Assembly: GCA_903885665.1 (NCBI GenBank)
Contig: CAISJL010000113.1
Location: 1-42,293 of the forward strand
Length of the DNA: 42,293 nucleotides
Direction of reading: 5' to 3'
Source of the DNA: an uncultured beta proteobacterium
GTDB lineage: Bacteria; Pseudomonadota; Gammaproteobacteria; Burkholderiales; SG8-41
In this document: piece by piece, positions 437 to 36,126 of the stretch
How positions within the stretch are numbered: position 1 is the stretch's first letter
How the letters are laid out: the number at the start of each line of letters is the position of its first letter
Translations under genes and position numbers: made by a program
Notes under the pieces: model-generated
Databases searched by the model: none
Seen by the model: the letters and a program-made list of their open reading frames with translations, nothing else
What the model was told of the DNA's origin: nothing

Positions 437-1324
437 CTAAGCCACCGGGTTCTCTAAAGTCCCAATCCCCTCAATCGTAATCGCCACCCGGTCACCTGCG
501 TGTAAAAACTTTGGTGGGTTAAAACCAATTCCAACACCCGCACACGTGCCTGTAGCAATCAAATCTCCTGGTTCTAGGGTCATAATCCGCGACAAGTCGG
601 CAATCAAACGGGGTATATCAAAAATCAATTGATTCACCAAGGTGTTTTGCCGCAATTCACCATTGACTCGAGTCGTTAATCGGCGTTGCGTAACATCACC
701 GATTTCATCGGCCGTCACAATGCACGGCCCCATCGGACAAAACCCATCCAGGCTCTTACCAAAAAACCATTGCTTGTGCTGATTCTGCAAGGTGCGTGCC
801 GTCACATCATTTATGATTGTGTAGCCATAGACATGACAATAAGCATCTGCTTGACTAATATGACGACCGCCTTCGCCCATCACTACAGTCAATTCCCCTT
901 CGTAATCGACCGAGTTGGTGTAATCATTTGCACTCGGGATTGCGTCCCCCGGGCCAATCACTGAGTTTGGCCACTTGGTAAAAATAATCGGCAACTCAGG
1001 CACTGCATCGGCACCTGCACTCGAATCAAATCCACTTTGATGAAACTCTTTGGCGTGTTCAAAGTAATTTTTTCCCACACACAATATATTCTTGGCAGGT
1101 CGTGGTATTGGAGCCAACAACTGCACACTCGCTGCAGGCAAGCGACCCTGACCGCTATTAACTGCGCGGCGCGCCCGACGCAAGCCCGTAGCACCCAGCG
1201 CAATAAACGCTAGCATTGATTGCGGCAAACGTGTACCCACAGACAAGTCTACAATCTCGCGAGTCTCTACAAGTTCAACCCCAATGCGTTGCCCCTTGCT
1301 GTCTTTAAATGTCACTAAGCGCAT
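437..1324 (-). CDS. Fumarylacetoacetate hydrolase (FAA) family protein
   Basis: This is a 295-residue member of the FAH/2-keto-4-pentenoate hydratase family, metal-dependent enzymes that hydrolyse, hydrate or decarboxylate 2-keto-acid intermediates of aromatic and related catabolism. The N-terminal MRLVTFKDSKG strand is followed by the FAH core. The core shows VDYEGELTVVMG with the metal-binding acids, NDVTARTLQ, the GKSLDGFCPMGP loop and a C-terminal PGDLIATGTCAGVG motif. The frame is open for 17 more codons upstream, but ATG at 1324 is preferred because it begins the conserved strand and has TTTGGAGAC upstream. The exact reaction cannot be read from the sequence. It is divergent from the SDR/Bug pair at 1547, so the two units may share a control region. 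Confidence 0.88.
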   Translation of the reverse strand: MRLVTFKDSKGQRIGVELVETREIVDLSVGTRLPQSMLAFIALGATGLRRARRAVNSGQGRLPAASVQLLAPIPRPAKNILCVGKNYFEHAKEFHQSGFDSSAGADAVPELPIIFTKWPNSVIGPGDAIPSANDYTNSVDYEGELTVVMGEGGRHISQADAYCHVYGYTIINDVTARTLQNQHKQWFFGKSLDGFCPMGPCIVTADEIGDVTQRRLTTRVNGELRQNTLVNQLIFDIPRLIADLSRIMTLEPGDLIATGTCAGVGIGFNPPKFLHAGDRVAITIEGIGTLENPVA

Positions 1325-1546
1325 AGCGAAAATGTCTCCAAAAGTCATTACAATGGTTGGGCCTATACAGCCCATTTAAATTTATTCCATTATATAGCGA
1401 TCGTTCATACAATGATCTCAAACCCCGTTATACTATTAAAAAAGATCAAGGTTGACGCAAACAGGTTTATAAAAACTGCCACCGATCAACGTCATATGAC
1501 ATACCCGTAGGATGCTGCGTTGCACACTACAGACCGAGGAGCAGAT

Positions 1547-2326
1547 ATGGATCTCGAATTAAAAGGCTTAAGCGCACTAGTCACTGGTGCTTCCCGTGGT
1601 ATTGGTTACGCCATCGCTATGGGTTTAGCTCGTGAGGGCGTTAACCTTCACCTTGCCGCACGCTCTAGCGCAGACTTAGAAACTGCGCGCACCCAAATCC
1701 TCGCGCAATACCCAGTAAAAATCAGTACCTATCCACTCGACCTAAGCGTTAGTCAAAGCATCAATCAGCTAGCTGCACAATGTGCTGATGTGGATATTCT
1801 GATCAACAATGCTGGCAGCATCACCTCGGGTCGACTAGGCGATATTGACGAAGCACGCTGGCGTGAAGCGTGGGAACTGAAAGTATTTGGTTATATCAAT
1901 CTCACCCGTGCACTCTACAAAACCATGTGCCAAAGACGTCACGGTGTTATTGTGAATGTCATTGGTGTCGCCGGCGAACGCCTACGGCAAGACTATATTG
2001 CCGGCAGTACGGGTAACGCTGCGCTGATGGCGTTTACCCGTAATCTTGGTGGTGAAAGCGTTGATCATCAAGTGCGCGTGGTTGGCGTCAACCCGGGACA
2101 AATTGAAACTGACCGCCTGCGCCAACGCCTAGAAAAACGTGCTGCAAAAGAACTGGGCGATCCCCAGCGCTGGCGGGAGCTGATTGAAGACCCCCCTCTT
2201 GGGCGCTTAGCCAGACCTGATGAAGTGGCAGACTCCGTGCTCTATCTAGCCTCGGCACGCGCTTCATACATCAGCGGCACTATTCTCACGGTCGACGGTG
2301 GACGCGCAGTCCGCCACCATACTTAA
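1547..2326 (+). CDS. SDR-fold protein lacking the canonical catalytic residues
   Basis: A 259-residue short-chain dehydrogenase/reductase fold. TGASRGIG (residues 14-20) is the nucleotide-binding motif, NNAG (87-90) is present, and the PG.IETD and tail D-G-G motifs are recognisable. Ungapped comparison with the PhaB encoded at 22994 shows the whole catalytic tetrad changed: Asn to Lys112, Ser to Gly140, Tyr to Gly153, Lys to Asn157. The segment reads NVIGVAGE...IAGSTGNAAL where PhaB has NVSS...YSAAK. It may still bind NAD(P) but cannot use standard SDR chemistry. ATG at 1547 is chosen because GAGGAG lies about 5 bp upstream; a TTG extension to 1520 has no support. The stop is 6 bp before the Bug gene, so the two are probably co-transcribed. 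Confidence 0.88.
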   Translation: MDLELKGLSALVTGASRGIGYAIAMGLAREGVNLHLAARSSADLETARTQILAQYPVKISTYPLDLSVSQSINQLAAQCADVDILINNAGSITSGRLGDIDEARWREAWELKVFGYINLTRALYKTMCQRRHGVIVNVIGVAGERLRQDYIAGSTGNAALMAFTRNLGGESVDHQVRVVGVNPGQIETDRLRQRLEKRAAKELGDPQRWRELIEDPPLGRLARPDEVADSVLYLASARASYISGTILTVDGGRAVRHHT

Positions 2327-2332
2327 CATATC

Positions 2333-3316
2333 ATGCGTCGCCCAATAGTCTTTGGCTACGGGATTACTATAGCGCTTTGCGGTCTGTTCCTAATCAATAC
2401 CACAAACAGTCTTGCTCAGACTTATCCTAACAAGCCAATACACATTGTTGTGCCATTTCCACCCGGCGGTGGTGTTGATGTGGTGGCCCGTGTAGTCGGT
2501 CGCAAGCTCAATGAATCACTGTCGCAACCAGTAGTCATTGAAAACCGTGGTGGAGCGGCCGGCACCTTGGGCGCTGAATATGTTGCCAAGGCAAGTGCCG
2601 ATGGTCACACTATCGGTTTATTCACCAGCACCTTGTTAATGACGCCGGCATTACAAAAAGTGCCCTACGATGCCCTCAAAGACTTTGCCCCCATCATCTT
2701 ATTTGCCACAGTACCTAACATTTTGGTTGTGCATCCTTCTCTACCGGCGCGCAACCTCAACGACTTATTACAACTAGCTAGAAACCGTCCCGGACAACTC
2801 ACCCATGGCACCTCTGGCCCAGGGAGCGTGCCACACCTCATGATGGAACTATTGCGCTCGATGGTGCCGCAATTTGCCATCGTGCACGTGCCCTACAAAG
2901 GCAATGCTCAGGCCATTACCGATTTACTCGGCGGCCACATCACCATGCATATTTCATCGATGATCTCGGCCACGCCATACATTAGCAATCACAAACTACG
3001 CGCAATAGCAGTCACTAGTGGCAAACGCTCGCGCGCAGCACAACAAGTCCCCACCTTTGCCGAGTCAGGGGCAGCGGGCTATGACGTGAGCTCATTATGG
3101 GGATTTTTAGCACCCGCGCAAACCGCAGTGGACGTCACGCAAAAACTCTACAACGAGATTGGTAAAATTCTGCGCGTGCCCGAAGTCAATGATCACTTGG
3201 CGAGCCAAGGGGCAGATATCTCGGGTGCAGGCCCTAGTGAGTATCTCGCATTAATGAAAATTGAGCTGGCACGCTGGCCGAAAGTCGTAGCCAGCGCCAA
3301 GATTCAAATTCAATAA
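2333..3316 (+). CDS. Bug/TctC-family tripartite tricarboxylate receptor
   Basis: A 327-residue periplasmic solute-binding protein. A Sec signal peptide (hydrophobic residues about 8-28, cleavage near SLAQ-TYP) is followed by YPNKPIHIVVPFPPGGGVDVVAR, the family signature whose PPGGG loop contacts the ligand carboxylate. Later motifs are ENRGGAAGTLGAEYVAKA, HVPYKGNAQAITDLLGG and the S-G-A-A-G-Y-D-V segment. These receptors bind di- and tricarboxylates or other small organic acids, but ligand identity cannot be predicted from sequence. It directly follows the degenerate SDR (6 bp gap). No TctA/TctB membrane genes are in the window, so it is an orphan receptor. Confidence 0.93.
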   Translation: MRRPIVFGYGITIALCGLFLINTTNSLAQTYPNKPIHIVVPFPPGGGVDVVARVVGRKLNESLSQPVVIENRGGAAGTLGAEYVAKASADGHTIGLFTSTLLMTPALQKVPYDALKDFAPIILFATVPNILVVHPSLPARNLNDLLQLARNRPGQLTHGTSGPGSVPHLMMELLRSMVPQFAIVHVPYKGNAQAITDLLGGHITMHISSMISATPYISNHKLRAIAVTSGKRSRAAQQVPTFAESGAAGYDVSSLWGFLAPAQTAVDVTQKLYNEIGKILRVPEVNDHLASQGADISGAGPSEYLALMKIELARWPKVVASAKIQIQ

Positions 3317-3406
3317 AATTTAGTTTTACTCAGCATCAAACTCATTCCGCTACAATCTCAGCGCGTTTAAAATTCACCCCGTTTAACACTCAATCAGCTC
3401 TTCTCA

Positions 3407-3922
3407 TCAATGCCCAACATCCAGCGCCACTAAAAACCGCGATACTAAATTATACGCAGCTACTGTTGCGGTTAACTCTACCAACTCACGGGCACTAAAA
3501 ATTGCTTTAAGCGGCTCATAGATTGACTCTGGCACCACAACCTCTTTGGTCATCACATCGGTATAGGCCAAGACCGCGCGCTCTTCAGCACTAAACAGTG
3601 GCGAATCAGCCCAATGCGTCAAGGCGGTCATTTGTGCATCGCTGACTCCCGCCTCTAACGCTGGACCCCGGTGTGCATTAAATTCGTAAGGCGCATGATT
3701 GAGTAATGCCACCCGCAAAATCACTAATTCACGATACTGCCCAGGCAAGGACGATTCACGTCGCACAGCGGTTAAAAAATGTAACCACCCGGCAGCAATC
3801 GGCGGACTATTGAGCAGCGTGCCGTAGAGCGCAGATACGCGCCCTCGCTGACCTTTCACATCCGCAATCAAGGACGCTAATTCAGGGTGTGCTGCTTCAT
3901 CAATCGGATTGACTCTAGCCAT
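3407..3922 (-). CDS. Carboxymuconolactone decarboxylase (CMD/AhpD-like) family protein
   Basis: A 171-residue all-alpha protein of the CMD/AhpD superfamily. The core ELVILRVALLNHAPYEFNAHRGPALEAG carries the conserved Glu and His but has Asn where AhpD-type members have the peroxidatic CxxC cysteines. It therefore belongs to the Cys-less 'Y-E-x-x-x-H' group and is unlikely to be a peroxidase. The C-terminal ELVELTATVAAYNLVSRF helix is typical. The substrate is unknown; such genes commonly sit in aromatic or organic-acid catabolic clusters. ATG at 3922 is preceded by a purine-rich GAGAAAGG at a long spacing. The upstream 60 bp contain short direct repeats (ACAATACGAAA, AATCAAAGAT). Confidence 0.82.
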   Translation of the reverse strand: MARVNPIDEAAHPELASLIADVKGQRGRVSALYGTLLNSPPIAAGWLHFLTAVRRESSLPGQYRELVILRVALLNHAPYEFNAHRGPALEAGVSDAQMTALTHWADSPLFSAEERAVLAYTDVMTKEVVVPESIYEPLKAIFSARELVELTATVAAYNLVSRFLVALDVGH

Positions 3923-4084
3923 GATGGCGCTTACCTTTCTCTATGAACAATACGAAACGAACAATACGAAATCAAAGATACAAAATCAAAGATGCAATCT
4001 GAATCATGCTACATGTTGCCAACGCTGCATGCTTCAACTAACGCTGGCTCCATAGCTAATCTACTCAATAGTAAATAGTAAAAA

Positions 4085-5116
4085 CTAACCCTTAGCGGCC
4101 AAGGCTTCCAAAGACTCAACCACTTTACGTTCCACTAAAATACCCTCTACGCGTCGCTGTTCACGTTCACGCATCGCGCGCTCCGAAGGCACGCGAATTT
4201 CATCCACTCCAGGCTGACGTGGCGTGGCTTTAATTTGGCGCACATACTCAGACATCTGCTCTTTAAATTCACCACCAGGTAGCATCACATTCGGGTCAAC
4301 CACCCAGAATAAAAATCCGTAGTCACGAACCTCGCCTTTGGTTAAGGCAGCACCTGCCAATAAACCCAAGGCTTGAATGGCAAACGACAAGCCATAACCT
4401 TTATGACCACCAAATGGTGCAACACCGCCTTTTAACACGGCACTCGCATCGGTAGATGGCTGTCCATGCTCATCAAAGCCCACACCTGCAGGCAGGGGCT
4501 CTTGCAAGTGCGCATGTAGCATCACCTCACCCCACATAAAAGAGGCAGTACCCATATCAAAAATCACCGGGCCATCATTCGAGGGAAAACCAAAACAAAT
4601 CGGATTAGTACCTAACATGGGGCGAGCCGCACCTGGCGGCAATACGCGAGGGTGTGCACTGGAAGTATGAATCGCAACCAAACCTTCTCGCACGACCTTC
4701 TCCACAAAATAAGCGTTACGACCGCTGTAATAACTATTGTAAGCGCCCACAGAGGCCATGCCCGACGTCTTAGCCTTGGCAATGGCTAATTCAGCAGCGC
4801 GATAGGCTGCGATATAACCCACATTGTTTCCACCATCCAGTAGTGCCGACACGGGCGTCTCGTTCACCACCCGTACTGGCAGTCGCGGACCACGCGTGCG
4901 CTCATCACCGGCAATCGCTAAGATGCGAGGTAGCCCTGCAAAACGATACCCACATAAAGAGTTATCGACTAACTGATCAACAATAATATGCGCGTCTTCA
5001 CCGCTATACCCGACTGCTTTTAGGGCACGCTCACCCAACTGCGTGGCATCAGTCGCCGACATACGAACGGTATTTGTGGTATCGGCATCTAATAATTGAG
5101 AATTTTTTGTGGACAT
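4085..5116 (-). CDS. Ldh-family (malate/L-lactate dehydrogenase-like) oxidoreductase, divergent active site
   Basis: A 343-residue protein of the type-2 malate/L-lactate dehydrogenase family (NAD(P)-dependent, not Rossmann-type). Family features are the N-terminal helical segment, LLDGGNNVGYIAAYRAAELAI, GTNPICFGFPS, the FDMGTASFMWGEV region and GGHKGYGLS near residue 245. The residues normally used for catalysis are altered. The RGxxSHGxxR motif reads GYRFAG (residues 56-61), so Ser-His becomes Phe-Ala, and the NSNHFG loop reads NSYYSG (127-132). The activity may therefore differ from classical 2-oxoacid reduction. A strong AGGAGTG ribosome site lies about 8 bp before ATG 5116. It probably forms a loose minus-strand cluster with the upstream cupin-rubredoxin gene, separated from it by a terminator-like hairpin. 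Confidence 0.85.
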   Translation of the reverse strand: MSTKNSQLLDADTTNTVRMSATDATQLGERALKAVGYSGEDAHIIVDQLVDNSLCGYRFAGLPRILAIAGDERTRGPRLPVRVVNETPVSALLDGGNNVGYIAAYRAAELAIAKAKTSGMASVGAYNSYYSGRNAYFVEKVVREGLVAIHTSSAHPRVLPPGAARPMLGTNPICFGFPSNDGPVIFDMGTASFMWGEVMLHAHLQEPLPAGVGFDEHGQPSTDASAVLKGGVAPFGGHKGYGLSFAIQALGLLAGAALTKGEVRDYGFLFWVVDPNVMLPGGEFKEQMSEYVRQIKATPRQPGVDEIRVPSERAMREREQRRVEGILVERKVVESLEALAAKG

Positions 5117-5178
5117 CGTACTGCACTCCTATATAAACCTCGCGCAGAGGTTGCTGATTCAATGAAAGTCATACCTGC

Positions 5179-5215
5179 AAAACAATACGGCAACGCCAGT
5201 GACACGTTGCCGTAT
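5179..5215 (-). terminator. Probable rho-independent terminator after the cupin-rubredoxin gene
   Basis: A perfect 11-bp inverted repeat (ATACGGCAACG at 5185-5195 and its complement at 5205-5215) encloses a 9-nt loop. Read on the minus strand the hairpin is followed by TGTTTTG, a modest U-rich tract. It lies between the cupin-rubredoxin gene and the Ldh-family gene, both on the minus strand. It would separate or attenuate their transcription. Confidence 0.55.
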
Positions 5216-5256
5216 GTCTATATTAAAAACATCCTAAACACTATGTAGGTTATTGA

Positions 5257-5288
5257 GTATTACGTATTACGTATTACGTATTACGTAT
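5257..5288. repeat. Heptanucleotide tandem repeat (GTATTAC x4.5)
   Basis: Four perfect copies of GTATTAC plus GTAT stand in the intergenic region downstream of the cupin-rubredoxin gene. The tract is AT-rich and noncoding. It looks like a product of replication slippage. Confidence 0.95.
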
Positions 5289-5360
5289 CAACACCCGCAC
5301 CAAAAATAACTGACAGGCGCTACTAATAACTAATACACCTAGCTGCTATGCAATCTTGAG

Positions 5361-6305
5361 TTAATTAACCACTCGCATTTGAAACTCGCTCTTACCGGTC
5401 GAACAGTCTGGGCAAATCCAATCCTCTGGTACATCTTCCCATGGCGTGCCCGGTGCTACACCCTCGTCCGGCATGCCCTTGGCTTCGTCATACACAAATG
5501 CACACAACATGCATTCCCAAACGCGCGTGCCCGGCGCACCTTTTGCTTGAACAGTCGTTGTGGTTGTGGTCGCTGTTGATGTCGACCAAGTGCGTGGGAA
5601 ATGCAATACCAAGGCGTCCACACCATCAGCGCCGGCAACCACTTCAAAAGCACCCTCTTCTGGAGTCACAAAAGCCACTGACAACGCACAGTACTCCTTA
5701 CCCTGATAAATCAAACTACCACGGGTAATGATTAAGTATTGGCCATTGGTCAGCGCAGGGTCTGGTGCCATGGCCCGACCATTTGCAGCCACCGTCATTG
5801 CAAAACTGGCTAAACCAGCATCACCTTTAATATCAGTAAACGCATTCACTGCAGCACCATCGGTCACCGGTGTGAACTTAGGTAACTCAGTGGCTTGCCA
5901 CGGGTTACGGTTAGCGATGGACTTGAGTTTGGCTAGCTTTTCTGGCTCGTCTAAATATTGCGCACCAGGATCTTTGTGCGCACGCAAAGTTAAGAATCCC
6001 ATTTGCTGATCACCAAAAATAATCGGGCCATAAGGGGTATAGCCTTTGGTGAAATGCACAGCATTCACACTTAAATCATGTTTGCCCATGACGCCATTAC
6101 CATGCACGATCACTTGATACTGATCGTTCTCATGAAAATGCGGTTTAATCACACGCCCTTCAGTCCCCTCAACCAAAAAAGCAACTGGCGTTGCAGCATT
6201 ATGCTCATCGGCTGAAATAAAATTAGTACGCCAAGCAGTGCCAGTCGGTGTTTGCCGTTGGGTTTTTTGGGCTTTCATATCTTCGTAGGCTGCGATTTGT
6301 GGCAT
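5361..6305 (-). CDS. Cupin domain protein with C-terminal rubredoxin domain
   Basis: A 314-residue two-part protein. Residues about 1-240 form a (bi)cupin region: VIKPHFHENDQYQVIVHG contains the first cupin motif with His56 and His58, and Gln takes the usual Glu place. A second beta-rich half (GQYLIITRGSLIYQGKEY) follows. After a Thr/Ser/Ala-rich linker comes a complete rubredoxin domain with iron ligands Cys265, Cys268, Cys298 and Cys301 (CMLCAFVYDEAKG ... DWICPDC). Rubredoxins carry one electron on an Fe(SCys)4 centre, so the fusion suggests a cupin oxygenase or oxidase with built-in electron delivery; this is inference. GGAG about 8 bp before ATG 6305 supports the start. It could be read as an anthranilate-dioxygenase-like cupin, but no specific substrate can be named. 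Confidence 0.85.
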   Translation of the reverse strand: MPQIAAYEDMKAQKTQRQTPTGTAWRTNFISADEHNAATPVAFLVEGTEGRVIKPHFHENDQYQVIVHGNGVMGKHDLSVNAVHFTKGYTPYGPIIFGDQQMGFLTLRAHKDPGAQYLDEPEKLAKLKSIANRNPWQATELPKFTPVTDGAAVNAFTDIKGDAGLASFAMTVAANGRAMAPDPALTNGQYLIITRGSLIYQGKEYCALSVAFVTPEEGAFEVVAGADGVDALVLHFPRTWSTSTATTTTTTVQAKGAPGTRVWECMLCAFVYDEAKGMPDEGVAPGTPWEDVPEDWICPDCSTGKSEFQMRVVN

Positions 6306-6356
6306 GCGTCACTCCTTTTTTATTAACAATTAGATCAACATAGATCAATAAACATA

Positions 6357-6396
6357 AGATCAACAAAGATCAACAAAGATCAACATAAGTCAACAT
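6357..6396. repeat. 10-bp direct repeats (AGATCAACAA-type) upstream of the cupin-rubredoxin gene
   Basis: Two perfect and two imperfect copies of AGATCAACAA stand in tandem. Further AGATCAA copies lie at about 6332-6348. They occupy the putative 5' leader or promoter of the cupin-rubredoxin gene. No known operator is recognised. Confidence 0.85.
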
Positions 6397-6559
6397 AAAA
6401 TCCATAATTACCTCAGATGGTCACGATCAATTAGTCGCGATGAGCGCTGCCGTGGTTCGCAATATGAACCAATATAAAGCAAGCAGCTTCTAGCCAAATG
6501 GATAGTCTCTATTGTATACGGACTTCACCCCGGCGAGACAACTGACACCACTAAAACCC

Positions 6560-6739
6560 TTATTTTTTTGCAGCTTCTGTATCAGGAATCACTACATCAA
6601 CGACGGCACCCACAGTTTTAGCACCCACTTTGACCACAGTGCTGACTACCGTAACGCCAGCATCAGCTACCGCAATAACACTGCAGCCGGTTTGCATTAA
6701 TACACCGAATAGCGTCATGCAAAGCACGATATATTTCAT
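6560..6739 (-). CDS. Small lipoprotein (59 aa)
   Basis: The short protein has a lipoprotein signal peptide (MKYIVLCMTLFGVLMQTGC, lipobox with Cys19). It continues as SVIAVADAGVTVVSTVVKVG and ends in PDTEAAKK. Ala/Val-rich lipoproteins of this length starting C-S-V-I-A-V-A-D-A are widespread in Proteobacteria, but their function is unknown. The start is set at 6739 because the signal peptide begins there and GAGG precedes it by 9 bp. The frame stays open upstream through four 15-bp repeats, each supplying another in-frame ATG, so longer isoforms cannot be excluded. Confidence 0.72.
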   Translation of the reverse strand: MKYIVLCMTLFGVLMQTGCSVIAVADAGVTVVSTVVKVGAKTVGAVVDVVIPDTEAAKK

Positions 6740-6740
6740 G

Positions 6741-6810
6741 GCACACAACCTCATTGAACACAGTCTCATTGAACGCATCCTCATTGAACACAGCCTCATT
6801 AAACGCATCA
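6741..6810 (-). repeat. 15-bp tandem repeats spanning the lipoprotein ribosome-binding region
   Basis: On the + strand four consecutive 15-bp units of the form TCATTGAACRCANYC occupy 6751-6810. On the minus strand each gives an ATGAG core, that is an in-frame ATG plus a partial Shine-Dalgarno element (ATGAGG). Because 15 is a multiple of three, each unit adds an in-frame potential start and five codons (M-R-L-C-S-like). Confidence 0.9.
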
Positions 6811-6853
6811 TTGGGGCGAAGTGAATTGAATACTACCCCCATACACAGCTCAT

Positions 6854-7825
6854 CTAGTCTGCTTTCACCTTGGCATCGCGCGCCACCTGAGACCAACGCG
6901 CCACTTCAGCCTTCACAAACACTGCAAACGCCTCCGGCCTGCTGCCCACTGGTTCCGAGGCTTCTGCTTGCAAACGCTTGGTGATTTCAGCACCCTGCAA
7001 GGCTTTGGTCGCCTCAAAATAAATGCGCTCTACAATCGGTTGCGCCACTTTAATCGGCGCGAAATATCCCATCCACCCAGTAAACGCAAAACCAGGCAAA
7101 CCAGACTCAGCAATGGTTGGGACATCGGGCAATGCCGTTGATCGCTGCGGAGTAGTCACCGCCAGCAAGCGCAAACGTCCCTCTTTGACTTGTGGTAGCG
7201 TAGACAAGGGACTAGAGAACATATATTGCACACGTCCTGCCAATACATCCCCTACCGCCAAAGGGATGCCCCGATAGGGCACATGCACCGTATCAATCTT
7301 AGCCATTAATTTAAACAACTCACCGGCTAAGTGATTAGAAGTCGCGTTACCCCCTGAACCATAATTCAACTGCCCCGGTCGAGTGCGCGCTAAGGCCACT
7401 AATTCCGCTACCGTGCGCACCCCTAGCCCCATATTCGCCACCAATACATTAGACTGCGTGAGGGTCTGGGTAATCGGGCAAAAATCACGAATCAAATCAA
7501 CCGCTAAGTTCTGTTGCACGCTACCGCGAATCACCACAGTGGCTGTGGTAAACATCAGGGTATAACCATCCGCAGGCGCGCGTGCTGCCAACTCAGCGCC
7601 TAGCGGACCAATTCGGTTATCCACAATAAACTGTTGTCCCATAGCCTCATAGAATTTTTGCGAAATCGCGCGTGCGACCACGTCAGCTGCACCACCGGCT
7701 TGGGAGGGCACGATGATTCGAACGGGCTTATGCGGATAGGCGCCCAACACGAGCGTCGCATTGCTACAAACAATCAAGCACAACAAAGCCTGTATGAAGC
7801 GATTAGTAAGAGGACTATACGTCAT
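6854..7825 (-). CDS. Bug/TctC-family receptor
   Basis: A 323-residue periplasmic solute receptor. The signal peptide is RFIQALLCLIVCSNATLVLGA, then YPHKPVRIIVPSQAGGAADVVAR, DNRIGPLGAELAARAPADGYT, HVPYRGIPLAVGDVLAGR and the final K-A-E-V-A-R-W-S-Q-V helix. The usual PFPPGGG loop reads PSQAGGA, a divergent ligand loop. ATG 7825 is preferred over the 349-residue extension because a normal signal peptide starts there. The start lies inside the end of the small upstream gene (11-bp overlap), which suggests translational coupling. The ligand is unknown. Confidence 0.9.
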   Translation of the reverse strand: MTYSPLTNRFIQALLCLIVCSNATLVLGAYPHKPVRIIVPSQAGGAADVVARAISQKFYEAMGQQFIVDNRIGPLGAELAARAPADGYTLMFTTATVVIRGSVQQNLAVDLIRDFCPITQTLTQSNVLVANMGLGVRTVAELVALARTRPGQLNYGSGGNATSNHLAGELFKLMAKIDTVHVPYRGIPLAVGDVLAGRVQYMFSSPLSTLPQVKEGRLRLLAVTTPQRSTALPDVPTIAESGLPGFAFTGWMGYFAPIKVAQPIVERIYFEATKALQGAEITKRLQAEASEPVGSRPEAFAVFVKAEVARWSQVARDAKVKAD

Positions 7826-8033
7826 AACGATTCGGAATTTTAGCAAGCGTTTGTTGTGCATAACGTCCCATTTTTCCGGTTTTATCCATACGCGCAATAT
7901 CATCTAAAGCGGTCCACATCAACTCATGCTCGCTTTTTAATTCATACACACGGTTGCGTAAATTAGTGGAATCGATTAGCGATAAGAGGGCAGAGGTCAT
8001 ACGCCCAACAAGCTTTATCCAGAATTCGTTCAT
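7815..8033 (-). CDS. Small hypothetical protein (72 aa) overlapping the Bug gene
   Basis: A short ORF beginning MNEFWIKLVGRMTSALLSLID with a charged helical remainder (LRNRVYELKSEHELMWTALDD). It has no signal peptide and no recognised domain. The helical, charge-patterned sequence and the 11-bp overlap with the Bug start argue for a real, coupled gene, although no strong ribosome site precedes ATG 8033. Met12 (8000) is an alternative start. The function is unknown. Confidence 0.5.
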   Translation of the reverse strand: MNEFWIKLVGRMTSALLSLIDSTNLRNRVYELKSEHELMWTALDDIARMDKTGKMGRYAQQTLAKIPNRYDV

Positions 8034-8434
8034 GGTAATGAGATGCGCCGCCTCAATGGTTTTTCAAAAATGGTTGATAAACAAAGATTTTTAAACAAAG
8101 ATTTTTTAACCATCGCCTGTATTCAAACAATATATCCCTATGCACATCATATCACTGCGCTTAACCTCCAATCTGTGCATGAGCACTCATCGCACAAACT
8201 TGCAAATCAACATTTATAACAACCGCACCCCATACAGGCCCGGAATTAAGCTGAAAGGTCCACATTGCATTAGCCTACGGTTTGACAAACCATAGGCTCG
8301 TTATGGATACTTAGCCCTCTGTGGGTCGATTGATCTGTTCTGGCGCTGAGCGCCTCAATCACTGCAACCAATTTGCACAGATTTTGAGCTGTTTCCATCA
8401 TATAAACCTATCATTCTTCAAAAGAGATTAGCCC
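8034..8434. other. Intergenic region between the small minus-strand gene and the alpha-hydroxyacid oxidase gene
   Basis: These 401 bp contain no plausible gene on either strand. They hold a direct repeat (ACAAAGATTTTT, twice, about 8083-8105) and the palindrome at 8272-8298, listed separately. Being between divergent genes, the region should contain both promoters. No -35/-10 pair could be assigned with confidence. Confidence 0.6.
8272..8298. promoter_or_regulatory. 27-bp near-perfect palindrome upstream of the alpha-hydroxyacid oxidase gene
   Basis: The arms AGCCTACGGTTTG and CAAACCATAGGCT are inverted repeats with one mismatch around a single central base (8285). No U-tract follows, and it lies in a divergent promoter region, so a regulator operator is more likely than a terminator. 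The regulator is not identified. Confidence 0.5.
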
Positions 8435-9637
8435 ATGAGCGACGATTTAAAAGCCTACAATATTTTCGATTTAAGAGAATTAGCCCTAAAACGCGTGCCA
8501 AAAGGCTTATTTGAATTTGTCGATCGCGGCACTGAGGACGAAGTCTCTCTCCACAATAATCGTTCGGTATTTGATCGAATTCGCTTCAAAACCCGCACAT
8601 TTAAAGATGTGTCCAAGCGTCATCAGTCGACCTCTATCTTCGGCGTTCCCCACAAAATGCCTTTGGTGATTGCACCCACAGGCATTGCGGGATTGCTGTG
8701 GTATGAAGGCGAGCTCGCATTAGCTCGAGCCGCACGTAGCGCAGGCATTCCATTCACCTTGGCTACTGGTTCGATTACCGCGATGGAGCGGGTTGCTGAT
8801 GAGGCTGGTGGTGATTTATGGTTTCAACTCTATATGTGGCCCGATCGCTCACTCTCACACGAACTGGTTAACCGCGCCAAAAATGCAGGCTACAAAGCCT
8901 TGGTTGTCACTGTGGATGGCGTCTCCGCTGGTAACCGTGAATACAATATGCGCAACGGCTTTACCATTCCATTCACCTTTTCTACCCGTAACGTGATTGA
9001 CATGGTGTCACACCCACGTTGGTTGTTGGGTGTAATGTTGCGCTACTTAGCCACTACTGGTATGCCGATGTATGCCAACTACCCTGCTGCTGCCAAGGCT
9101 AAAATGACTGCAGGTCCGATGGGGCGCTCGAGCTTGCGCACAGACTCCATCAGCTGGGATGATCTGGACGCCTTGCGTAAAATCTGGCCTCATAAACTGA
9201 TTGTCAAAGGCATACTCAATGCCCAAGATGCAGCGACAGCTGTTGATCACGGTGCTGACGGCATTGATGTCTCCAATCACGGCGGACGTAATCTCGATGG
9301 CATTATCTCGCCGATCGAAGTGTTACCAGAAATCGTCGATGCAGTGGGTCATCGCGCGACTGTGTTTATGGATAGCGGTGTGCGCCGCGGCTCCGACGTC
9401 GTCAAAGCGCTCACCTTAGGTGCAGATGCAGTCATGGTAGGTCGTTCTACGCTCTATGGCGTTGCGGCTGGCGGTGAAGCGGGTGCAAGCCTCGCATTAA
9501 AAATCTACCACGACGAAATTCATCGCGTGTTGGCGCTGCTTGGCGTGAATAACCTCACAGAGCTCAGCCCAGACCACTTGCTGTTTGCCGATAATGCACA
9601 ATTACGTGCGCCACTGGCCAAACATCACAACAGTTAA
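8435..9637 (+). CDS. FMN-dependent alpha-hydroxyacid oxidase/dehydrogenase (LldD/glycolate-oxidase family)
   Basis: A 400-residue TIM-barrel flavoprotein that oxidises 2-hydroxy acids to 2-keto acids. Visible family residues are APTGIAGLL, ATGSI, QLYMWPD with the substrate Tyr, TVDGVSAGNRE, KGILNAQDA (flavin Lys), SNHGGRNLDG (catalytic His and substrate Arg), DSGVRRGSDVVKAL and GRSTLYG. One departure is that the Tyr corresponding to spinach glycolate-oxidase Tyr24 is Phe28 here (GLFEFVDRGTEDE). The substrate could be lactate, mandelate, glycolate or a larger hydroxyacid. An AAAGAGAT element precedes ATG 8435. It is followed by a perfect 39-bp hairpin and the Bug/selenoprotein unit, whose receptor might supply its substrate (inference). 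Confidence 0.92.
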   Translation: MSDDLKAYNIFDLRELALKRVPKGLFEFVDRGTEDEVSLHNNRSVFDRIRFKTRTFKDVSKRHQSTSIFGVPHKMPLVIAPTGIAGLLWYEGELALARAARSAGIPFTLATGSITAMERVADEAGGDLWFQLYMWPDRSLSHELVNRAKNAGYKALVVTVDGVSAGNREYNMRNGFTIPFTFSTRNVIDMVSHPRWLLGVMLRYLATTGMPMYANYPAAAKAKMTAGPMGRSSLRTDSISWDDLDALRKIWPHKLIVKGILNAQDAATAVDHGADGIDVSNHGGRNLDGIISPIEVLPEIVDAVGHRATVFMDSGVRRGSDVVKALTLGADAVMVGRSTLYGVAAGGEAGASLALKIYHDEIHRVLALLGVNNLTELSPDHLLFADNAQLRAPLAKHHNS

Positions 9638-9663
9638 TCCAAACACAACATCAATATGGTAGT

Positions 9664-9702
9664 CACTATCAAACGCTAGGCAATGCCTAGCGTTTGATAG
9701 TG
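9664..9702. terminator. Perfect 39-bp inverted repeat after the alpha-hydroxyacid oxidase gene
   Basis: A 19-bp arm (9664-9682) and its exact complement (9684-9702) flank one central base. RNA from either strand would form a very stable hairpin. No U-run follows on either side, so it may be an intergenic stabiliser or attenuator rather than a classical terminator. It shares the half-site GCCTANNGTTTG with the palindrome at 8272-8298, but in inverted topology. Confidence 0.6.
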
Positions 9703-9828
9703 ATGTGCAGTTCCTAAAGCATACAGATTGTATGTCACGTATACATCTCTGCGACACTTGCAGTGTTGTCATCATGTGTAGTTGTTGAGTTTCTTGTTTT
9801 CTTGTTTTCTTGTTTTAATAGGATGCTT

Positions 9829-10806
9829 ATGTTTCGATTGTTCAATTGCACGCTCACCATGCTCATGGCCTTGATGAGTCTTAGCGTTTCAATCAGCCAC
9901 GCCCAAACCTACCCCAATGGCGCAATCCGCTGGATAGTCCCCTTTCCACCCGGCGGCGGCACTGATATCCTCGCCCGCACCTTAGGTCAAAAACTGACCG
10001 AGTCTTGGGGGGTTCCCGTCATTATCGATAACCGTGGTGGCGCCAATGGCACAATTGGCGCGGCTGCCGCAGCAAAATCTCCACCCGATGGGCAAACGCT
10101 ACTCATTGTGCCCAGCGGCTTTGCAGTCAATCCCAGTATTTACAAAAACCTACCCTTTGATAGCACCAAGGATCTCGCACCAGTTAGTCAGCTCGCTGCT
10201 AGCCCACTCATTTTAGTGGTGCATCCTTCTTTCCCTACAAAAAGTGTCAAAGCGCTCATTAGCTTTCTCAAGGCCCACCCTGACAGCATTAACTACGGCA
10301 GCTCGGGCAATGGCTCACCACCTCATTTAGCCACCGAGTTATTCAAGTATTTAACCCACACCCGCATGACCCACATCCCTTACAAAGGTGCAGGACCTGC
10401 TGCAGTCGATGTCATCGCCGGCCAAATCCCCGTCTACTTCATGAATGCCTTACAAGCGGTACCGTATATTCGTGCCGGTCGGATTCGCCCGCTAGGGGTG
10501 ACCAGTGAAAACCGCTTTGGCTCCCTGCCCGACATTCCGAGTATTGCTGAGGCCGGAGTTCCGGGTTACGCCATGACCAACTGGTACGGACTACTCACTC
10601 AAGGCAACACCCCAAAGTTTGCGATCAATAAACTGCAGACCGAAATTTCTCGCCTGCTCAACCTGCCTGAAATTCGTGATCGTTTAAGCAAAGAAGGCGC
10701 AGACGTGGTTGCCAGCACACCAGAGCAATTTGGCCAATTTCTCAAAGTCGAAATGGAAAAGGCCAATCGCATTGTCAAAGCCTCTGGTATGACGGCGAGC
10801 AACTAA
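9829..10806 (+). CDS. Bug/TctC-family receptor upstream of the selenoprotein fusion
   Basis: A 325-residue periplasmic receptor. The signal peptide MFRLFNCTLTMLMALMSLSV ends near ISHAQ-TYP. The mature protein shows IRWIVPFPPGGGTDILAR, DNRGGANGTIGAAAAAKSPPDG, HIPYKGAGPAAVDVIAGQ and AGVPGYAMTNWYG, a textbook Bug signature. ATG 9829 is chosen because AATAGGA lies about 6 bp upstream; the frame is open back to 9763. It is 107 bp upstream of the UGSC selenoprotein gene on the same strand, the same order and spacing seen in the second cluster near 36.7 kb. Its ligand may be the substrate, or a relative of the substrate, of the selenoprotein pathway. Confidence 0.93.
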   Translation: MFRLFNCTLTMLMALMSLSVSISHAQTYPNGAIRWIVPFPPGGGTDILARTLGQKLTESWGVPVIIDNRGGANGTIGAAAAAKSPPDGQTLLIVPSGFAVNPSIYKNLPFDSTKDLAPVSQLAASPLILVVHPSFPTKSVKALISFLKAHPDSINYGSSGNGSPPHLATELFKYLTHTRMTHIPYKGAGPAAVDVIAGQIPVYFMNALQAVPYIRAGRIRPLGVTSENRFGSLPDIPSIAEAGVPGYAMTNWYGLLTQGNTPKFAINKLQTEISRLLNLPEIRDRLSKEGADVVASTPEQFGQFLKVEMEKANRIVKASGMTASN

Positions 10807-10913
10807 GGCCTAAGGTTAAATTTTAAATAACGTTAAATATTCAATTAAATCAGCAATTTAATGAATTTAAACAGCCATCACCTAGCAACCAGATCAACTG
10901 AGGAAGACAGACC

Positions 10914-12641
10914 ATGAGTAATCACAGCACCACCTACGCTGCCGTGTGGCCGCGCAGCCCACGTCAAAACAAAGTCAAACCACTTGCTAAACGTCTAGAC
11001 ACCCTTTCCGGCAAAACCATTGGATGGGTCTGGGATTATGTATTTCGGGGCAACGAAGTGTTTGAACAACTCGAAATCAGCTTAAGTGCGCTCTACCCTG
11101 GGGTGAAGTTTGTGCACTGGGACGAGTTCGGTAACACCCACGGCGGCGATGAGCGCCAAGTTGTTGCCACGCTACCCGAGAAAATCAAGGCGCTTGGGGT
11201 TGACGCCATCGTCTCTGGGATGGGTTGTTGAGGCAGCTGTACGCCCGCCGTGTTGCGGGCCAGTGCAGCAGCCGAAGCCGCCGGAATTCCCTCAGCTACT
11301 TTGGTTTGCGTGAGCTTCCAAACCCTAGCCAAAGCCGCCTCTTTAGGGTTGGGCATGCCCAACTTACCCACTGCACCTGTGCCTGGGCACCCTGGGCTAC
11401 AAAGTAAAGAGGTTCTACAAAAAAATGTGCGTGATGTCACTCTGCAAGGGGTGATCGATTGCCTGTTAAAACCACCAGCACTTGTCAAAACCAGTGATGA
11501 GCCCAGTGCCCGCGAGATCGTTTGCACCGGCAGTTTTGAAGAAATCAACGAATACTTCACCACCCAAGAATTATCTGATGGCTTGCCGATTGTGCCCCCG
11601 ACTATCGATAAAGTTGAGGCGTTCTTACGCTTCACCGACAAGTCTGCCGATGAAGTAATTGGCATTATGTTGCCAGACAATCGGGCCGCTACGGTGTGGA
11701 GTATTGCGGTCAATGGCGTGATGGCTGGATGTAGGCCAGAATACATGCCAGTACTAGTAGCCTTGATTGAAGCGATGGCCGATCATGCCTATGGTGTTGA
11801 ACACAGCGGCAACACACCGGGCGGTGAAACGCAAATCATTCTAAACGGCCCGATCATCAAAACCTTGGGCTTTAACTACACCCAAGGTGTAATGCGCGAT
11901 GGCTTCCAAGCCAATTCCTCGGTAGGCCGTTTCTGGCGACTGTATTTACGCAATATTGCCGGTTTCCTGCCGCACAAAAACGACAAAGCCACCTTCGGTA
12001 ATACGTGGCGTGTGGTCGTCGCCGAGAATGAAGATGTGGTATCAAATATTGGTTGGACACCAAATTCAACCGAGTTTGGATTCAAAGCCGGTAGTAACGT
12101 AGTCTCGATTGGACGCTACACTGGGGGTAATCATATCTCCTCAGTATCAGGAGCCACACCTGAGGCCTTGTTACCCTACCTCAGTGACGCTGTCATCAAA
12201 CAATACTCTTGGCAAATTATGTTCACCGTGGGTCAGGGTATGGGCACATTGCGCCCCTTAATCCTGCTCTCGCCCATTATTGCTGAAACTATTGCCGCTG
12301 GTGGCTGGTCTAAACAAGATTTAAAACAACAACTGTTTGATCACGCACGAATCCCTGCATGGATGTTTGAGAAAATCTTACGCGACTGGACACAAAAGCC
12401 GATTTGGGATCTGGCAAAAGAACACACTGCAGGTCATATCCCTAAAGTGTTTCATGAATCCGACGACCCGAACCGCATGGTGCCTATCGTGTTTACGCCG
12501 GATCACTTCATGATTGTGGTGACCGGTGACTTAGGTCGCAATAGCTGTTATGTATTTGCGCACAATGGCGTGCTCGGTTACCCAGTGGGTAAAGAAATCA
12601 CCTTGCCCAAGCAATGGGATCAGCTATTAGCTAAAGATTAA
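10914..12641 (+). CDS. UGSC-motif selenoprotein fused to the partner domain (TGA 11229-11231 read as Sec106)
   Basis: The frame from ATG 10914 meets one TGA at 11229-11231 and then stays open in the same frame to TAA at 12641. This gives 575 residues with selenocysteine at position 106 in the motif G-C-U-G-S-C. Residues 1-180 form the UGSC domain: LSGKTIGWVWDY, DAIVSGMGC-U-GSCTP, TLVCVSFQTLAKAA, LPTAPVPGHPG. Residues about 205-575 form the partner domain: LSDGLPIVPPT, NGVMAGCRPEYMPVL, NGPIIKTLG, LYLRNIAGFLP, VVAENEDVV. A SECIS-like hairpin starts 11 nt after the TGA. The post-TGA sequence is homologous to the second UGSC gene at 36.1-36.7 kb, which excludes a chance readthrough. U-x-x-C suggests a thiol/selenol redox site. 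The family name is from memory; the reaction is unknown. No signal peptide is seen, so it is probably cytoplasmic. Confidence 0.9.
11229..11269 (+). promoter_or_regulatory. Bacterial SECIS-like element in the UGSC fusion gene
   Basis: After the TGA come 11 nt (11232-11242) and then a perfect 6-bp stem, GCCCGC (11243-11248) with GCGGGC (11255-11260), closing the 6-nt loop CGUGUU. A lower stem GCTGTAC (11236-11242) with GTGCAGC (11263-11269) forms across a 2-nt CA bulge. The distance from UGA to the loop G-U is about the same as in E. coli fdhF, whose SelB-binding loop also presents G-U. SelB binding is inferred. Confidence 0.8.
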
Positions 12642-12797: not shown

Positions 12798-13902
12798 ATG
12801 GAAGCCGAACAAATCAACGCCATTGCGCACTGCCTACAAGATCTAGAGGCTAGAACCATCGCCTTACGGAGGTATCTTTGACTACGAGACCAAGCAACGA
12901 CGGCTCGAAGAATTAATTAAACTCAGTGAAGATCCGGCATTGTGGCAAGATGCCGCACGCGCGCAAGAAGTCGGTCGCGAGCGCAAACTCCTCGAAAGTG
13001 TAGTGATCACCTTACGCGATCTTGATCGTGATATGCGCGACGCCCAAGAACTCTTTGAAATGGCGCGTGGCGAGCAAGACGACAGCATGCTGATTGCCGT
13101 TGAGGCCGATGCCAACAAACTCGAAGGTGTAGTCGGCGATATGGAATTTAGGCGCATGTTCTCCAATCCCATGGATCCGAATAACTGCTTTTTAGATATT
13201 CAATCAGGCTCTGGCGGTACCGAAGCCCAAGACTGGGCCTCCATTTTAGAACGCATGTATCTGCGCTACTGCGAGACCAAAAAATTCAAAGTCGAAGTGC
13301 TCGAAGAGTCACAAGGTGACGTTGCAGGTATTAAAAGTGCCTCGCTCAAAGTCTCGGGGGACTATGCCTTCGGTCACCTACGCACTGAATCAGGCGTGCA
13401 TCGCTTAGTACGCAAATCACCGTTTGACTCTAATAACAGACGTCACACCTCATTCGCTAGTGTATTTGTCTACCCCGAGGTCGATGACTCGATCGAGGTC
13501 GACGTCAACCCCGCCGACCTGCGCGTCGACACCTACCGCGCCTCTGGTGCCGGTGGTCAGCACATTAATAAAACCGACTCCGCAGTGCGCATTACACATC
13601 TGCCCTCAGGCATTGTCGTGCAGTGTCAAAGCGACCGCTCCCAGCATCGCAACCGAGCCGAGGCGATGGCGATGCTCAAGTCCAGACTCTACGAACTGGA
13701 GCTACGTAAGCGCACCGAGCAAAAACAAGCGCTAGAGGATGCCAAAACTGATATTGGCTGGGGGCATCAAATTCGCTCCTATGTGCTCGACCAATCTCGC
13801 ATCAAAGATTTACGCACCAATGTAGAAGTAGGCAACACCCAAGGGGTGCTCGATGGTGACCTCGAGCCATTCATCACAGCCAGCCTTAAATCCGGGCTCT
13901 AA
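12798..13902 (+). CDS. prfB: Peptide chain release factor 2, with programmed +1 frameshift
   Basis: RF2 recognises UAA and UGA stops and triggers peptidyl-tRNA hydrolysis. Translation begins at ATG 12798, and 27 codons lead to CTT-TGA (TGA 12879-12881). The ribosome shifts +1 and continues at GAC 12880 to the stop at 13902, giving 367 residues, close to the E. coli 365. The shift site has the classical CGGAGG-TAT-CTT-TGA-C layout. The second part contains SPF ([11 protein letters not shown]), the RF2 stop-codon-recognition tripeptide, and GGQ ([13 protein letters not shown]), the catalytic motif. Low RF2 lets the frameshift occur, so the gene is autoregulated. Because UGA is also a Sec codon in this window, RF2 level should influence selenoprotein yield. 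lysS follows after 16 bp. Confidence 0.97.
12867..12882 (+). promoter_or_regulatory. prfB programmed +1 frameshift site
   Basis: An internal Shine-Dalgarno-like CGGAGG sits three bases before the slippery CTT codon, which is followed by TGA and C. This matches the conserved RF2 autoregulatory signal. The upstream frame would otherwise end as a 27-residue peptide. Confidence 0.96.
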
Positions 13903-35070: not shown

Positions 35071-36126
35071 CTAGGTCTCAATACGTCGCGTGACCGCTCG
35101 GCTATTGCCAAAACACGGTACATACACCGAATGCGTGCCCGCACCGCCAGCCACAATCAACTGGATATCATCCGGCGTTGTCGCTATCGGCAACAAGGTA
35201 TCCGGACTGAGCGGGCCAAGCTCAACCGTGCGTGAGGCACGGGCCCGCTCAATCTCATGTACGCTTAAATCGCGCACCGGCATTTTCGACTGTTCCCACA
35301 AGGCCTGCTTGACTTGCGCTTTGTCCATTCCCGCTTGCTTCAGAATTTCTGCATGTTCGGTGCCAACAATAAACCACGGCTCACCGCCATGTACATACTC
35401 ATTACTGGTAGGATGAATCATGGTCTGAGCAATCACCCGCAACAACTCAGATGCCGATTTGGCATGGGTATTCATATTGAGTGTGCCCTCAGCGCCCACC
35501 ACCGTCACCGTGCTCTCGGTTGCACTAAAACCGCGCTCAACATGCAACGGCTGCCAGGGGTGATTAACCTCATTCTCGGCACAACAAAACGTATACTTTG
35601 CCGGCTGGCCGTGGGTGGCGCGATCCATCTCACCCGGCAAAGCCCCACCAATATTTTGTAAGATCAAATGCAAAGCACGCCCCAGTGTGGCGTTAGCCCA
35701 AGCGCCTTGTCCAATGCAATTAAATCCCGCATTAATCTCCAGCTGTTGGGCAATCGGACCGTTCACAATCAACCATACCGCCACTGGATTGGTGGTGGCT
35801 TGAATCGCTTGCAGATTAAAACTGGATTCCGCCATGGCCGCAGTCGCAGCAATCAACACTGGCAGATACGCCGGCTCGCACCCGGCCATGACTGCATTAA
35901 TCGCAATACGCTCGACAGTGGCCGCACCAAAGCCTGGGGCAACTCGCGCAATAACAGTTTGCGGGGGAATACGCACTGCAGCCAACATGCGCGCCACACG
36001 TTCTGCAGTCGGCGGAATAATCGGCAGACCGTCGCTCCAGCGACGCTCACGATACAGGCGATTAATCGCCTCTACATCATCGGCGCATTCAAAATGTGCA
36101 GCACGGTCTAAGCTATTAGCGCTCAT
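35071..36126 (-). CDS. UGSC-partner protein (stand-alone homologue of the fusion's C-terminal domain)
   Basis: A 351-residue protein homologous to residues about 205-575 of the selenoprotein fusion at 10914. Shared segments are SDGLPIIPPT, AINAVMAGCEPAYLPVLIAA, NGPI, NATLGRALHLILQNIGGALPGEMDRATHG and CAENEVNHP. The conserved Cys in VMAGC and the acids in the AENE motif are candidate functional residues. The C-terminal LIVAGGAGTHSVYVP parallels IVVTGDLGRNSCYVF in the fusion. No signal peptide. The start ATG 36126 overlaps the stop of the selenoprotein gene in ATGA, so the two are translationally coupled and their products probably interact, as the fused version also implies. The function is unknown. 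Confidence 0.88.
   Translation of the reverse strand: MSANSLDRAAHFECADDVEAINRLYRERRWSDGLPIIPPTAERVARMLAAVRIPPQTVIARVAPGFGAATVERIAINAVMAGCEPAYLPVLIAATAAMAESSFNLQAIQATTNPVAVWLIVNGPIAQQLEINAGFNCIGQGAWANATLGRALHLILQNIGGALPGEMDRATHGQPAKYTFCCAENEVNHPWQPLHVERGFSATESTVTVVGAEGTLNMNTHAKSASELLRVIAQTMIHPTSNEYVHGGEPWFIVGTEHAEILKQAGMDKAQVKQALWEQSKMPVRDLSVHEIERARASRTVELGPLSPDTLLPIATTPDDIQLIVAGGAGTHSVYVPCFGNSRAVTRRIET

Follow-up and report, generated by a model that had tools for sequence, protein, structure and literature searches.

Proteins with the motif UGSC, in which U is selenocysteine (Sec), were described from the Global Ocean Sampling (GOS) data, where 255 of them were found and where a fusion of the UGSC domain to a domain named 'Unknown_1' was printed, a thioredoxin-like fold being guessed (Zhang and Gladyshev 2008, PMC2398784, in the passages available); by the same passages they rank with the most frequent selenoproteins of aquatic metagenomes. 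A 2016 survey contains the row 'UGSC-containing protein 26 33', which in the available part of the text we take as 33 proteins in 26 organisms (PMC5029168), and a 2026 review, in its accessible portion, places UGSC among the predicted families and groups it with thioredoxin (Trx)-like proteins (PMC13188914). Here we analyze a UGSC gene in a 42,293-nucleotide stretch of DNA from an uncultured beta proteobacterium (contig CAISJL010000113.1 of assembly GCA_903885665.1), referred to as the window. The gene, at 10914-12641, belongs to the known UGSC family and is of the fusion type already printed in 2008; it is therefore not a new selenoprotein. What the analysis adds is a case for Sec decoding of its in-frame TGA, a link from the UGSC domain to the part of glycine and D-proline reductase that bears Sec, and a record of how strongly the family has expanded.

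The 575-codon frame on the + strand holds a single internal TGA, at 11229-11231 (residue 106), in the context G-M-G-C-U-G-S-C-T-P, read onward as GMGC-U-GSCTPAV. An earlier note on this DNA had proposed that one TGA interrupts one continuous frame here, that a UGSC motif (G-C-U-G-S-C-T-P) flanks it and that automated calling returns a truncated 105-residue protein plus a wrongly started 463-residue one. Translation confirmed the first two points, and open reading frame (ORF) calling with table 11 reproduced the third, giving 105 residues from 10914-11231 and a GTG-started product of 463 residues from 11250-12641. The features of the gene are as follows.

10900 to 10906, + strand: Shine-Dalgarno-like GAGGAAG ahead of the ATG (from the sequence)
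10914 to 12641, + strand: putative UGSC/C-domain fusion selenoprotein gene, 575 residues, Sec106 (single-TGA frame; PF24696; AlphaFold2 (AF2) model)
10944 to 11444, + strand: UGSC domain (PF24696), homologous by profile matches to PrdB and to the C-terminal part of GrdB that carries Sec
11229 to 11231, + strand: UGA codon very probably read as selenocysteine (site alignment; Sec machinery in the genome)
11232 to 11273, + strand: predicted hairpin of the bacterial Sec insertion sequence (SECIS) type, apical loop CGUGUU starting 17 nucleotides past the UGA (folding, synonymous shuffles)
11499 to 12638, + strand: C-terminal domain (C-domain), taken as the 'Unknown_1' of the 2008 paper (alignment of 62 proteins)

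Homologues were taken from the best 80 of 582 confirmed places, and the closest named ones were 76-78% identical to the whole fusion frame, across the TGA. In 12 pairwise comparisons purifying selection was evident on both sides of the codon, with nonsynonymous differences per site (dN) of 0.12-0.41 before it and 0.16-0.31 after it; silent differences (dS) in the same comparisons were 0.69-0.84 per site, i.e. near or past saturation. Since this identity spans the TGA and dN is far below dS on both sides, the similarity exceeds what chance would give. In an alignment of 143 homologous stretches from the gathered loci (L001-L024 set aside), the position of the TGA was occupied by U in 133, C in eight, G in one and a gap in one. 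The eight Cys forms, of the kind the earlier note had anticipated, came from Novosphingobium, Nocardioides, two Prevotellaceae metagenome-assembled genomes (MAGs), two Bacillota MAGs, a Lachnospiraceae MAG and a Bacteroidia MAG.

The genome of the window (G000; 3.03 Mb in 187 contigs, with an estimated contamination of 3.09%) contains the complete set of decoding genes that the earlier note had suggested looking for. tRNA-Sec scored 75.6 bits against a gathering score of 47, selD (which carries one TGA itself) 410.7 bits and selB 433.6 bits; selA (PF03841, 510.4 bits) lies directly before selB, and a thioredoxin reductase (TrxR)-like gene (Pyr_redox_2) completes this row. Only matches over cut-off were relied on for these families, because control genomes also match such families below cut-off. 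At three other loci (L108, L109 and L112) selA and selB adjoin the UGSC fusion gene.

A bacterial SECIS element is a hairpin placed immediately downstream of the UGA, with G within the first two nucleotides of its loop. The hairpin of the fusion gene has a minimum free energy of -29.2, with a z-score of -2.26 against synonymous-codon shuffles (p 0.010), and that of a second UGSC gene in the window, whose loop begins 19 nucleotides past its UGA, also reached p 0.010; for the other paralogues of the genome that were read, apart from C4, p ranged from 0.050 to 0.300. Across 92 non-redundant genes (less than 90% identical, from 124 distinct sequences) a hairpin obeying the rule was present in 88, whereas 100 synonymous-codon shuffles gave 42.3 on average and never more than 56, a strict test as the codons were drawn from the same set. 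The nine homologues that have Cys or Gly in place of Sec included just one with such a hairpin. Under a stricter form of the rule 51 of 92 genes remained, against 23.9 on average and at most 34 in the shuffles. Among 68 homologues (distinct sequences with PAV, not thinned by identity) the five inner stem pairs were intact in 67-68 and their silent positions hardly varied, although silent sites across the whole genes approach saturation; the outer pairs were looser (26-62 of 68), pair 12-29 being G-C in 55 and A-T in five. An Rfam scan around the TGA returned just two sub-threshold long non-coding RNA matches.

Every test that could be run (family alignment, tRNA-Sec, selA, selB, selD and SECIS hairpin) therefore supports the selenoprotein reading of the earlier note, and on these sequence data the UGA at 11229-11231 very probably encodes selenocysteine, so that one selenium-containing chain of 575 residues would be made. 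Some observations count against this conclusion. The hairpins of six paralogues reached only p 0.055-0.300 against synonymous shuffles, and that of paralogue C4 (L034) was no better than its shuffles (p 0.955). The Sec machinery lies on contigs C163 and C50, the window being C113, in an assembly with the contamination given above. A Lachnospiraceae paralogue (L105) has GGGASG at the site, i.e. neither Sec nor Cys, and TGA-less UGSC matches occur in two related genomes (4 of 58 in G293 and one full-length row in G140).

The L105 locus (653-11605) contains three same-strand UGSC/C-domain genes, in Cys, GGGASG and Sec forms; a TGA there that was first suspected to lie inside the C-domain proved to be that gene's normal stop. 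Other UGxC-like motifs in the window were rejected as candidates, their frames containing 3 to 8 TGA and showing no match to the fusion gene.

Residues 11-177 of the fusion matched PF24696 at 5.4e-25 (88.9 bits, over the gathering cut-off of 25), and the family also matched all 62 proteins of our alignment A2. The equivalog model NF041046 (UGSC_fam) was not reached, at 41.2 bits against a cut-off of 125, and we therefore regard the window protein as a diverged branch of the family; after the motif it reads TPAVLR, where six of the nine other copies in its genome have SW or SG. The AF2 model of the fusion has a predicted local distance difference test score (pLDDT) of 95.4 and a predicted template modelling score (pTM) of 0.93. 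In it the UGSC domain has predicted strands at 35-40, 65-67, 98-104, 127-132 and 153-156 alternating with helices, and Sec106 falls between strand 98-104 and helix 109-122. We read this predicted domain as Rossmann-like, not Trx-like. Thioredoxin was absent from the 50 listed Protein Data Bank (PDB) matches of a search made with the whole fusion protein, and a profile search of PDB sequences found no solved relative.

The family models of selenoprotein B of the reductases indicated a wider relationship. The PrdB model was matched by 40 of the 62 A2 members at E<=0.1 (best 3.4e-5), and the GrdF, GrdB and GrdH models and a mixed selenoprotein B model by 15, 13, 12 and 10 members, respectively. 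The Sec regions read as follows: KELKADGVDAVILTST-UGTC-TRCGATMVKEIERAGI in GrdB (L163), LKEIKVDAVVLTAG-UGTC-HRSAV in PrdB (L176) and IKALGVDAIVSGMGC-UGSC-TPAV in the window protein. When the UGSC domain was aligned by hhalign to 24 GrdB and 2 PrdB rows from other genomes (two of the rows, L166 and L175, stemming from one gene), the result was 97.5% over 103 columns (E 5.5e-12 for one comparison) with Sec on Sec, and with the motif (residues 104-111) masked it was still 95.6% (1.2e-8). The controls stayed low, at no more than 7.2% in 30 column shuffles and 0.1-1.9% for TctC, the TrxR-like protein, SDR and the C-domain. A comparison with GrdE, a subunit of the same complex, gave 49% (E 1.7e-4), far above the other controls; this weak match, which lies at GrdE residues 260-344 (L180:7440-8732), may reflect a shared fold, or a related one without the motif.

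These profile comparisons make the UGSC domain a homologue of the Sec-bearing domain in GrdB and PrdB. As the window protein stays below the PrdB cut-off and PF07355 (GrdB) has no match in its genome, it is a distant homologue and not a member. Across the phylum, 5 of 299 genomes showed weak matches to PF07355. Five genomes that carry diverged UGSC genes showed no match, but the controls did not match there either. We found no statement of a UGSC-GrdB/PrdB link in the parts of the publications that were searched, and other papers may contain one. Such a link would give UGSC proteins a mechanism that can be put to the test, together with a set of assays.

In the C-domain, Cys273, Arg339, Asn347 and Glu371 are invariant across the 62 proteins of A2; in paralogue C4, which lies outside A2, Gly replaces the invariant Cys. 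The domain accompanies all ten UGSC genes of the genome, fused in six and separate in four, and the separate protein matched no Pfam family at E<=0.01. Identification with GrdE or PrdA was tried and rejected (hhalign 0.6% with 10 GrdE and 0.1% with 2 PrdA only), and a lone PF09338 match of one member at 0.04 was not upheld in profile comparison, which was confined to the C-domain, the genome not having been searched for PF09338. Neither did the fold offer a usable lead, as the best Foldseek matches were only class I fumarate hydratases (E 3e-4, TM-score about 0.2) and a profile search of PDB sequences gave nothing usable. A standalone second C-domain gene stands behind the fusion in L080, L081, L082, L085, L086, L088, L089, L090 and L093, with a TrxR-like gene directly behind it in L080, L088 and L089.

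UGSC genes are numerous in this genome and in its relatives. There were 12 UGSC matches in the window's genome, 11 of them over cut-off and every one with one TGA, which probably represent about ten Sec genes: C19 and C82, whose ends carry an identical stretch, were counted as one gene, and C40 appears to be the edge of the C175 gene. In a survey of 399 genomes of the same order, with at most eight candidates scored per genome, 41 had a UGSC match over cut-off, with one TGA each among the rows listed. Ten relatives, picked for many candidates or as members of the same genus, were scored in full and gave 9 to 58 matches each, the listed exceptions being one G140 row without a stop and one G293 row with an extra TAG. 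The largest number was in G293, a 5.7-Mb assembly in 330 contigs with completeness 98 and contamination 2. It had 58 matches, 57 of them over cut-off; of the 58, 51 had exactly one TGA (some being partial), three had a TGA and another stop, and four had no TGA. At the best 30 of these 58 loci there were 32 UGSC domains, with U in 32 of 32 and a median nearest identity of 66%. No pair exceeded 77.4% identity over 60 or more residues, which indicates that the copies are paralogues and not strain copies.

The largest bacterial selenoprotein sets comprise 57 and 63 selenoproteins, and selenoproteins are rarely kept by aerobic bacteria, according to the accessible part of the 2026 review (PMC13188914). 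In the window's genome a COX1 gene scored 541.9 bits, from which an aerobic life of the organism may be inferred. About ten copies of one selenoprotein family in a genome with a haem-copper oxidase, and the 51 single-TGA matches of a relative, bear on the question of selenoproteins in aerobes. Annotation that halts at UGA would truncate such genes. The expansion was not found in the available text of the publications searched; other papers may contain it.

The second UGSC locus and the neighboring genes of the window are as follows.

36123 to 36674, - strand: second putative UGSC selenoprotein gene (separate domain), TGA at 36386-36384 (PF24696 8.3e-47; SECIS p 0.010)
35071 to 36126, - strand: separate C-domain gene whose start shares the overlap ATGA with the UGSC stop (31% identical to the fusion's C-domain)
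9763 to 10806, + strand: gene for a TctC (Bug) solute-binding protein, immediately 5' of the fusion (PF03401, 228.5 bits)
36791 to 37774, - strand: TctC gene directly upstream of the split pair (PF03401, 209.5 bits)

The earlier note had held that the sequence after the TGA is homologous to the post-TGA sequence of another gene in the window. Such a homologue does exist; however, it is split into two genes, and the similarity extends to both sides of the TGA (25% identity before it and 31% after it).

Neighbors were surveyed at 90 loci (the window, nine from its own genome and 80 named), from which 142 non-redundant immediate neighbors (156 scanned) were compared with 148 genes at least four away (200 scanned). 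TctC genes made up 29 of 142 immediate and 17 of 148 far neighbors (p 0.027). For SBP_bac_5 the immediate count was 13 against at most 1 of 148 (p 0.0006) and for Pyr_redox_2 it was 6 against at most 1 (p 0.054); the far value of 1 was assumed in both cases, as only 25 family rows were shown. Kin of the TrxR-like gene that follows selB were found in 12 of 407 genes within three genes of a UGSC or C-domain gene and in 1 of 266 further away (p 0.013), after ten loci without a called UGSC gene had been dropped, including L113, which has a TrxR-like gene; the loci are not independent. Such a gene directly follows or precedes a UGSC or C-domain gene on the same strand in L069, L137, L077, L088, L089 and L080. 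It was also present in 9 of the 10 glycine-reductase regions fetched, where it is 29-34% identical to that of the window's genome. We consider the linkage to UGSC genes modest. The position of a TrxR-like gene after selB or near UGSC genes was not found in the accessible text of the publications searched.

TctC binding proteins are hugely expanded in the window's genome, with at least 150 genes in 3.0 Mb; one of 150 scored (G000:C142:17662-18480) has a single in-frame TGA. At L076 a gene 72% identical to the window TctC lies two called genes upstream of the fusion homologue. The fusion gene is followed by prfB (release factor 2, with PCRF and RF-1 domains) at 12798-13902 on the + strand. Its in-frame TGA at 12879-12881 stands in the context AGGTAT CTT TGA C, which we take to be the classical programmed +1 frameshift motif of prfB. 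The window therefore appears to hold in-frame TGAs with two meanings, Sec in UGSC and frameshifting in prfB. Since the 80 named loci showed no prfB next to their UGSC genes, the idea that it is part of the UGSC system was dropped. L065 and other environmental MAG records with UGSC genes are titled Bordetella parapertussis; we suspect misnaming.

We propose, at what we judge to be even chances, that the fusion protein is a Sec-dependent reductase of organic acids fed by NAD(P)H and TrxR and supplied by TctC or ATP-binding cassette (ABC) binding proteins. The reductant is suggested by the TrxR-like genes near UGSC genes and in the glycine-reductase regions, and the substrate class by the TctC and SBP_bac_5 neighbors. 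SelB and tRNA-Sec would insert Sec106, whose selenol, at its predicted position between strand and helix, would attack a small organic acid bound by the fused C-domain. In this scheme the C-domain would stand in for the GrdE of glycine reductase or the PrdA of proline reductase. The intermediate could be resolved by the second Cys, Cys109, and re-reduction by NAD(P)H would run via the TrxR-like flavoprotein encoded beside selB. The paralogues would differ in their substrates, which TctC or ABC binding proteins would bring in.

Several results weigh against this proposal. The GrdB and PrdB models match the window protein weakly (13.3 bits with the PrdB model, against a cut-off of 300), and PF07355 had no match in its genome, where GrdA and GrdE were not searched for. 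The C-domain is unrelated to GrdE and PrdA, so pyruvoyl substrate binding is not transferable to it. The TctC enrichment is modest, and the genome is rich in TctC genes. The TrxR-like gene is not beside the window's own UGSC genes, three of the 12 near hits (L108, L109 and L112) belong to a single conserved selAB cluster, and few genes made up the far control. Biochemistry or function of any UGSC protein was not found in the publications searched. A broader reading, to which we give somewhat short of even chances, is that the UGSC/C-domain proteins form an unrecognized branch of selenoenzymes of the glycine/proline-reductase type. This branch would work in bacteria that respire oxygen, with a new substrate-binding domain instead of the pyruvoyl subunit and a dedicated TrxR-like reductase by selAB, and in some Burkholderiales it would have multiplied to about fifty diverged Sec copies per genome, each tuned to a different organic acid imported with TctC or ABC binding proteins. 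If this were true, a single selenoprotein family would rival the largest whole selenoproteomes on record.

The alternative that survives best, although we consider it unlikely, is that Sec is a ligand or nucleophile in a non-redox reaction (e.g. lyase or transfer chemistry acting on a carboxylate) that is catalyzed chiefly by the C-domain. The invariant Cys, Arg, Asn and Glu of the C-domain itself, the standalone second C-domain genes behind the fusion at nine named loci and the persistence of a paralogue without Sec or Cys would all suit it, as would the weak structural likeness to class I fumarate hydratases; however, the TM-scores of that likeness are too low to trust, and U or C is kept in 141 of the 143 UGSC stretches, which fits a redox or strongly nucleophilic role.

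The printed view would make UGSC proteins general thiol-disulphide or peroxide oxidoreductases with a thioredoxin-like fold, the fused domain only recruiting partners, and we regard this as slightly less likely still. The 2026 review, in the portion available, names UGSC alongside peroxiredoxin-, thioredoxin- and glutaredoxin-like proteins (PMC13188914), and a UxxC motif with a TrxR-like neighbor would agree with such a role. Against it stand the AF2 model, in which five beta strands alternate with helices and Sec follows strand three, the lack of a thioredoxin among the 50 PDB matches listed for the whole protein, and the profile match, which points to GrdB and PrdB; tens of diverged copies beside substrate-binding proteins also suit substrate-specific enzymes better than housekeeping ones. 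Finally, that the TGA is a genuine stop, in a pseudogene, through a sequencing error or between two proteins with a restart at GTG 11250, is scarcely credible and was rejected: mechanical calling does give two ORFs, but the same TGA recurs in 133 of 143 stretches, in ten paralogues of the genome and in many genomes, selection is purifying on both sides, a SECIS hairpin is present and the split would cut one compact predicted domain.

Set against the UGSC family (PF24696/NF041046), the reductase we propose has the same family assignment, the same motif and the same fusion-type architecture, although it falls below the NF041046 cut-off; its C-domain is probably the Unknown_1 domain of the 2008 paper. 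The fluoroacetate reductase pair farB/farE of Cloacibacillus (PMC10838667) likewise shows a GrdB-type family split into substrate-specific paralogues; it is a GrdB/GrdE-type pair from an anaerobe, and UGSC is unmentioned in the passages covered. Compared with GrdB and PrdB, the window gene sits in a genome with a haem-copper oxidase, its fused domain is unrelated to the pyruvoyl subunits GrdE and PrdA, and it lacks the second Cys of GrdB's UxxCxxC, as do the two PrdB read. What it has in common with glycine and D-proline reductase is a TrxR-like gene nearby, in both UGSC and reductase regions, and a Sec domain of about 105 residues, homologous to that of GrdB of glycine/sarcosine/betaine reductase (PF07355) and PrdB (TIGR04483) with Sec on Sec, for example GVDAIV...UGSC in the window protein against GVDAVI...UGTC.
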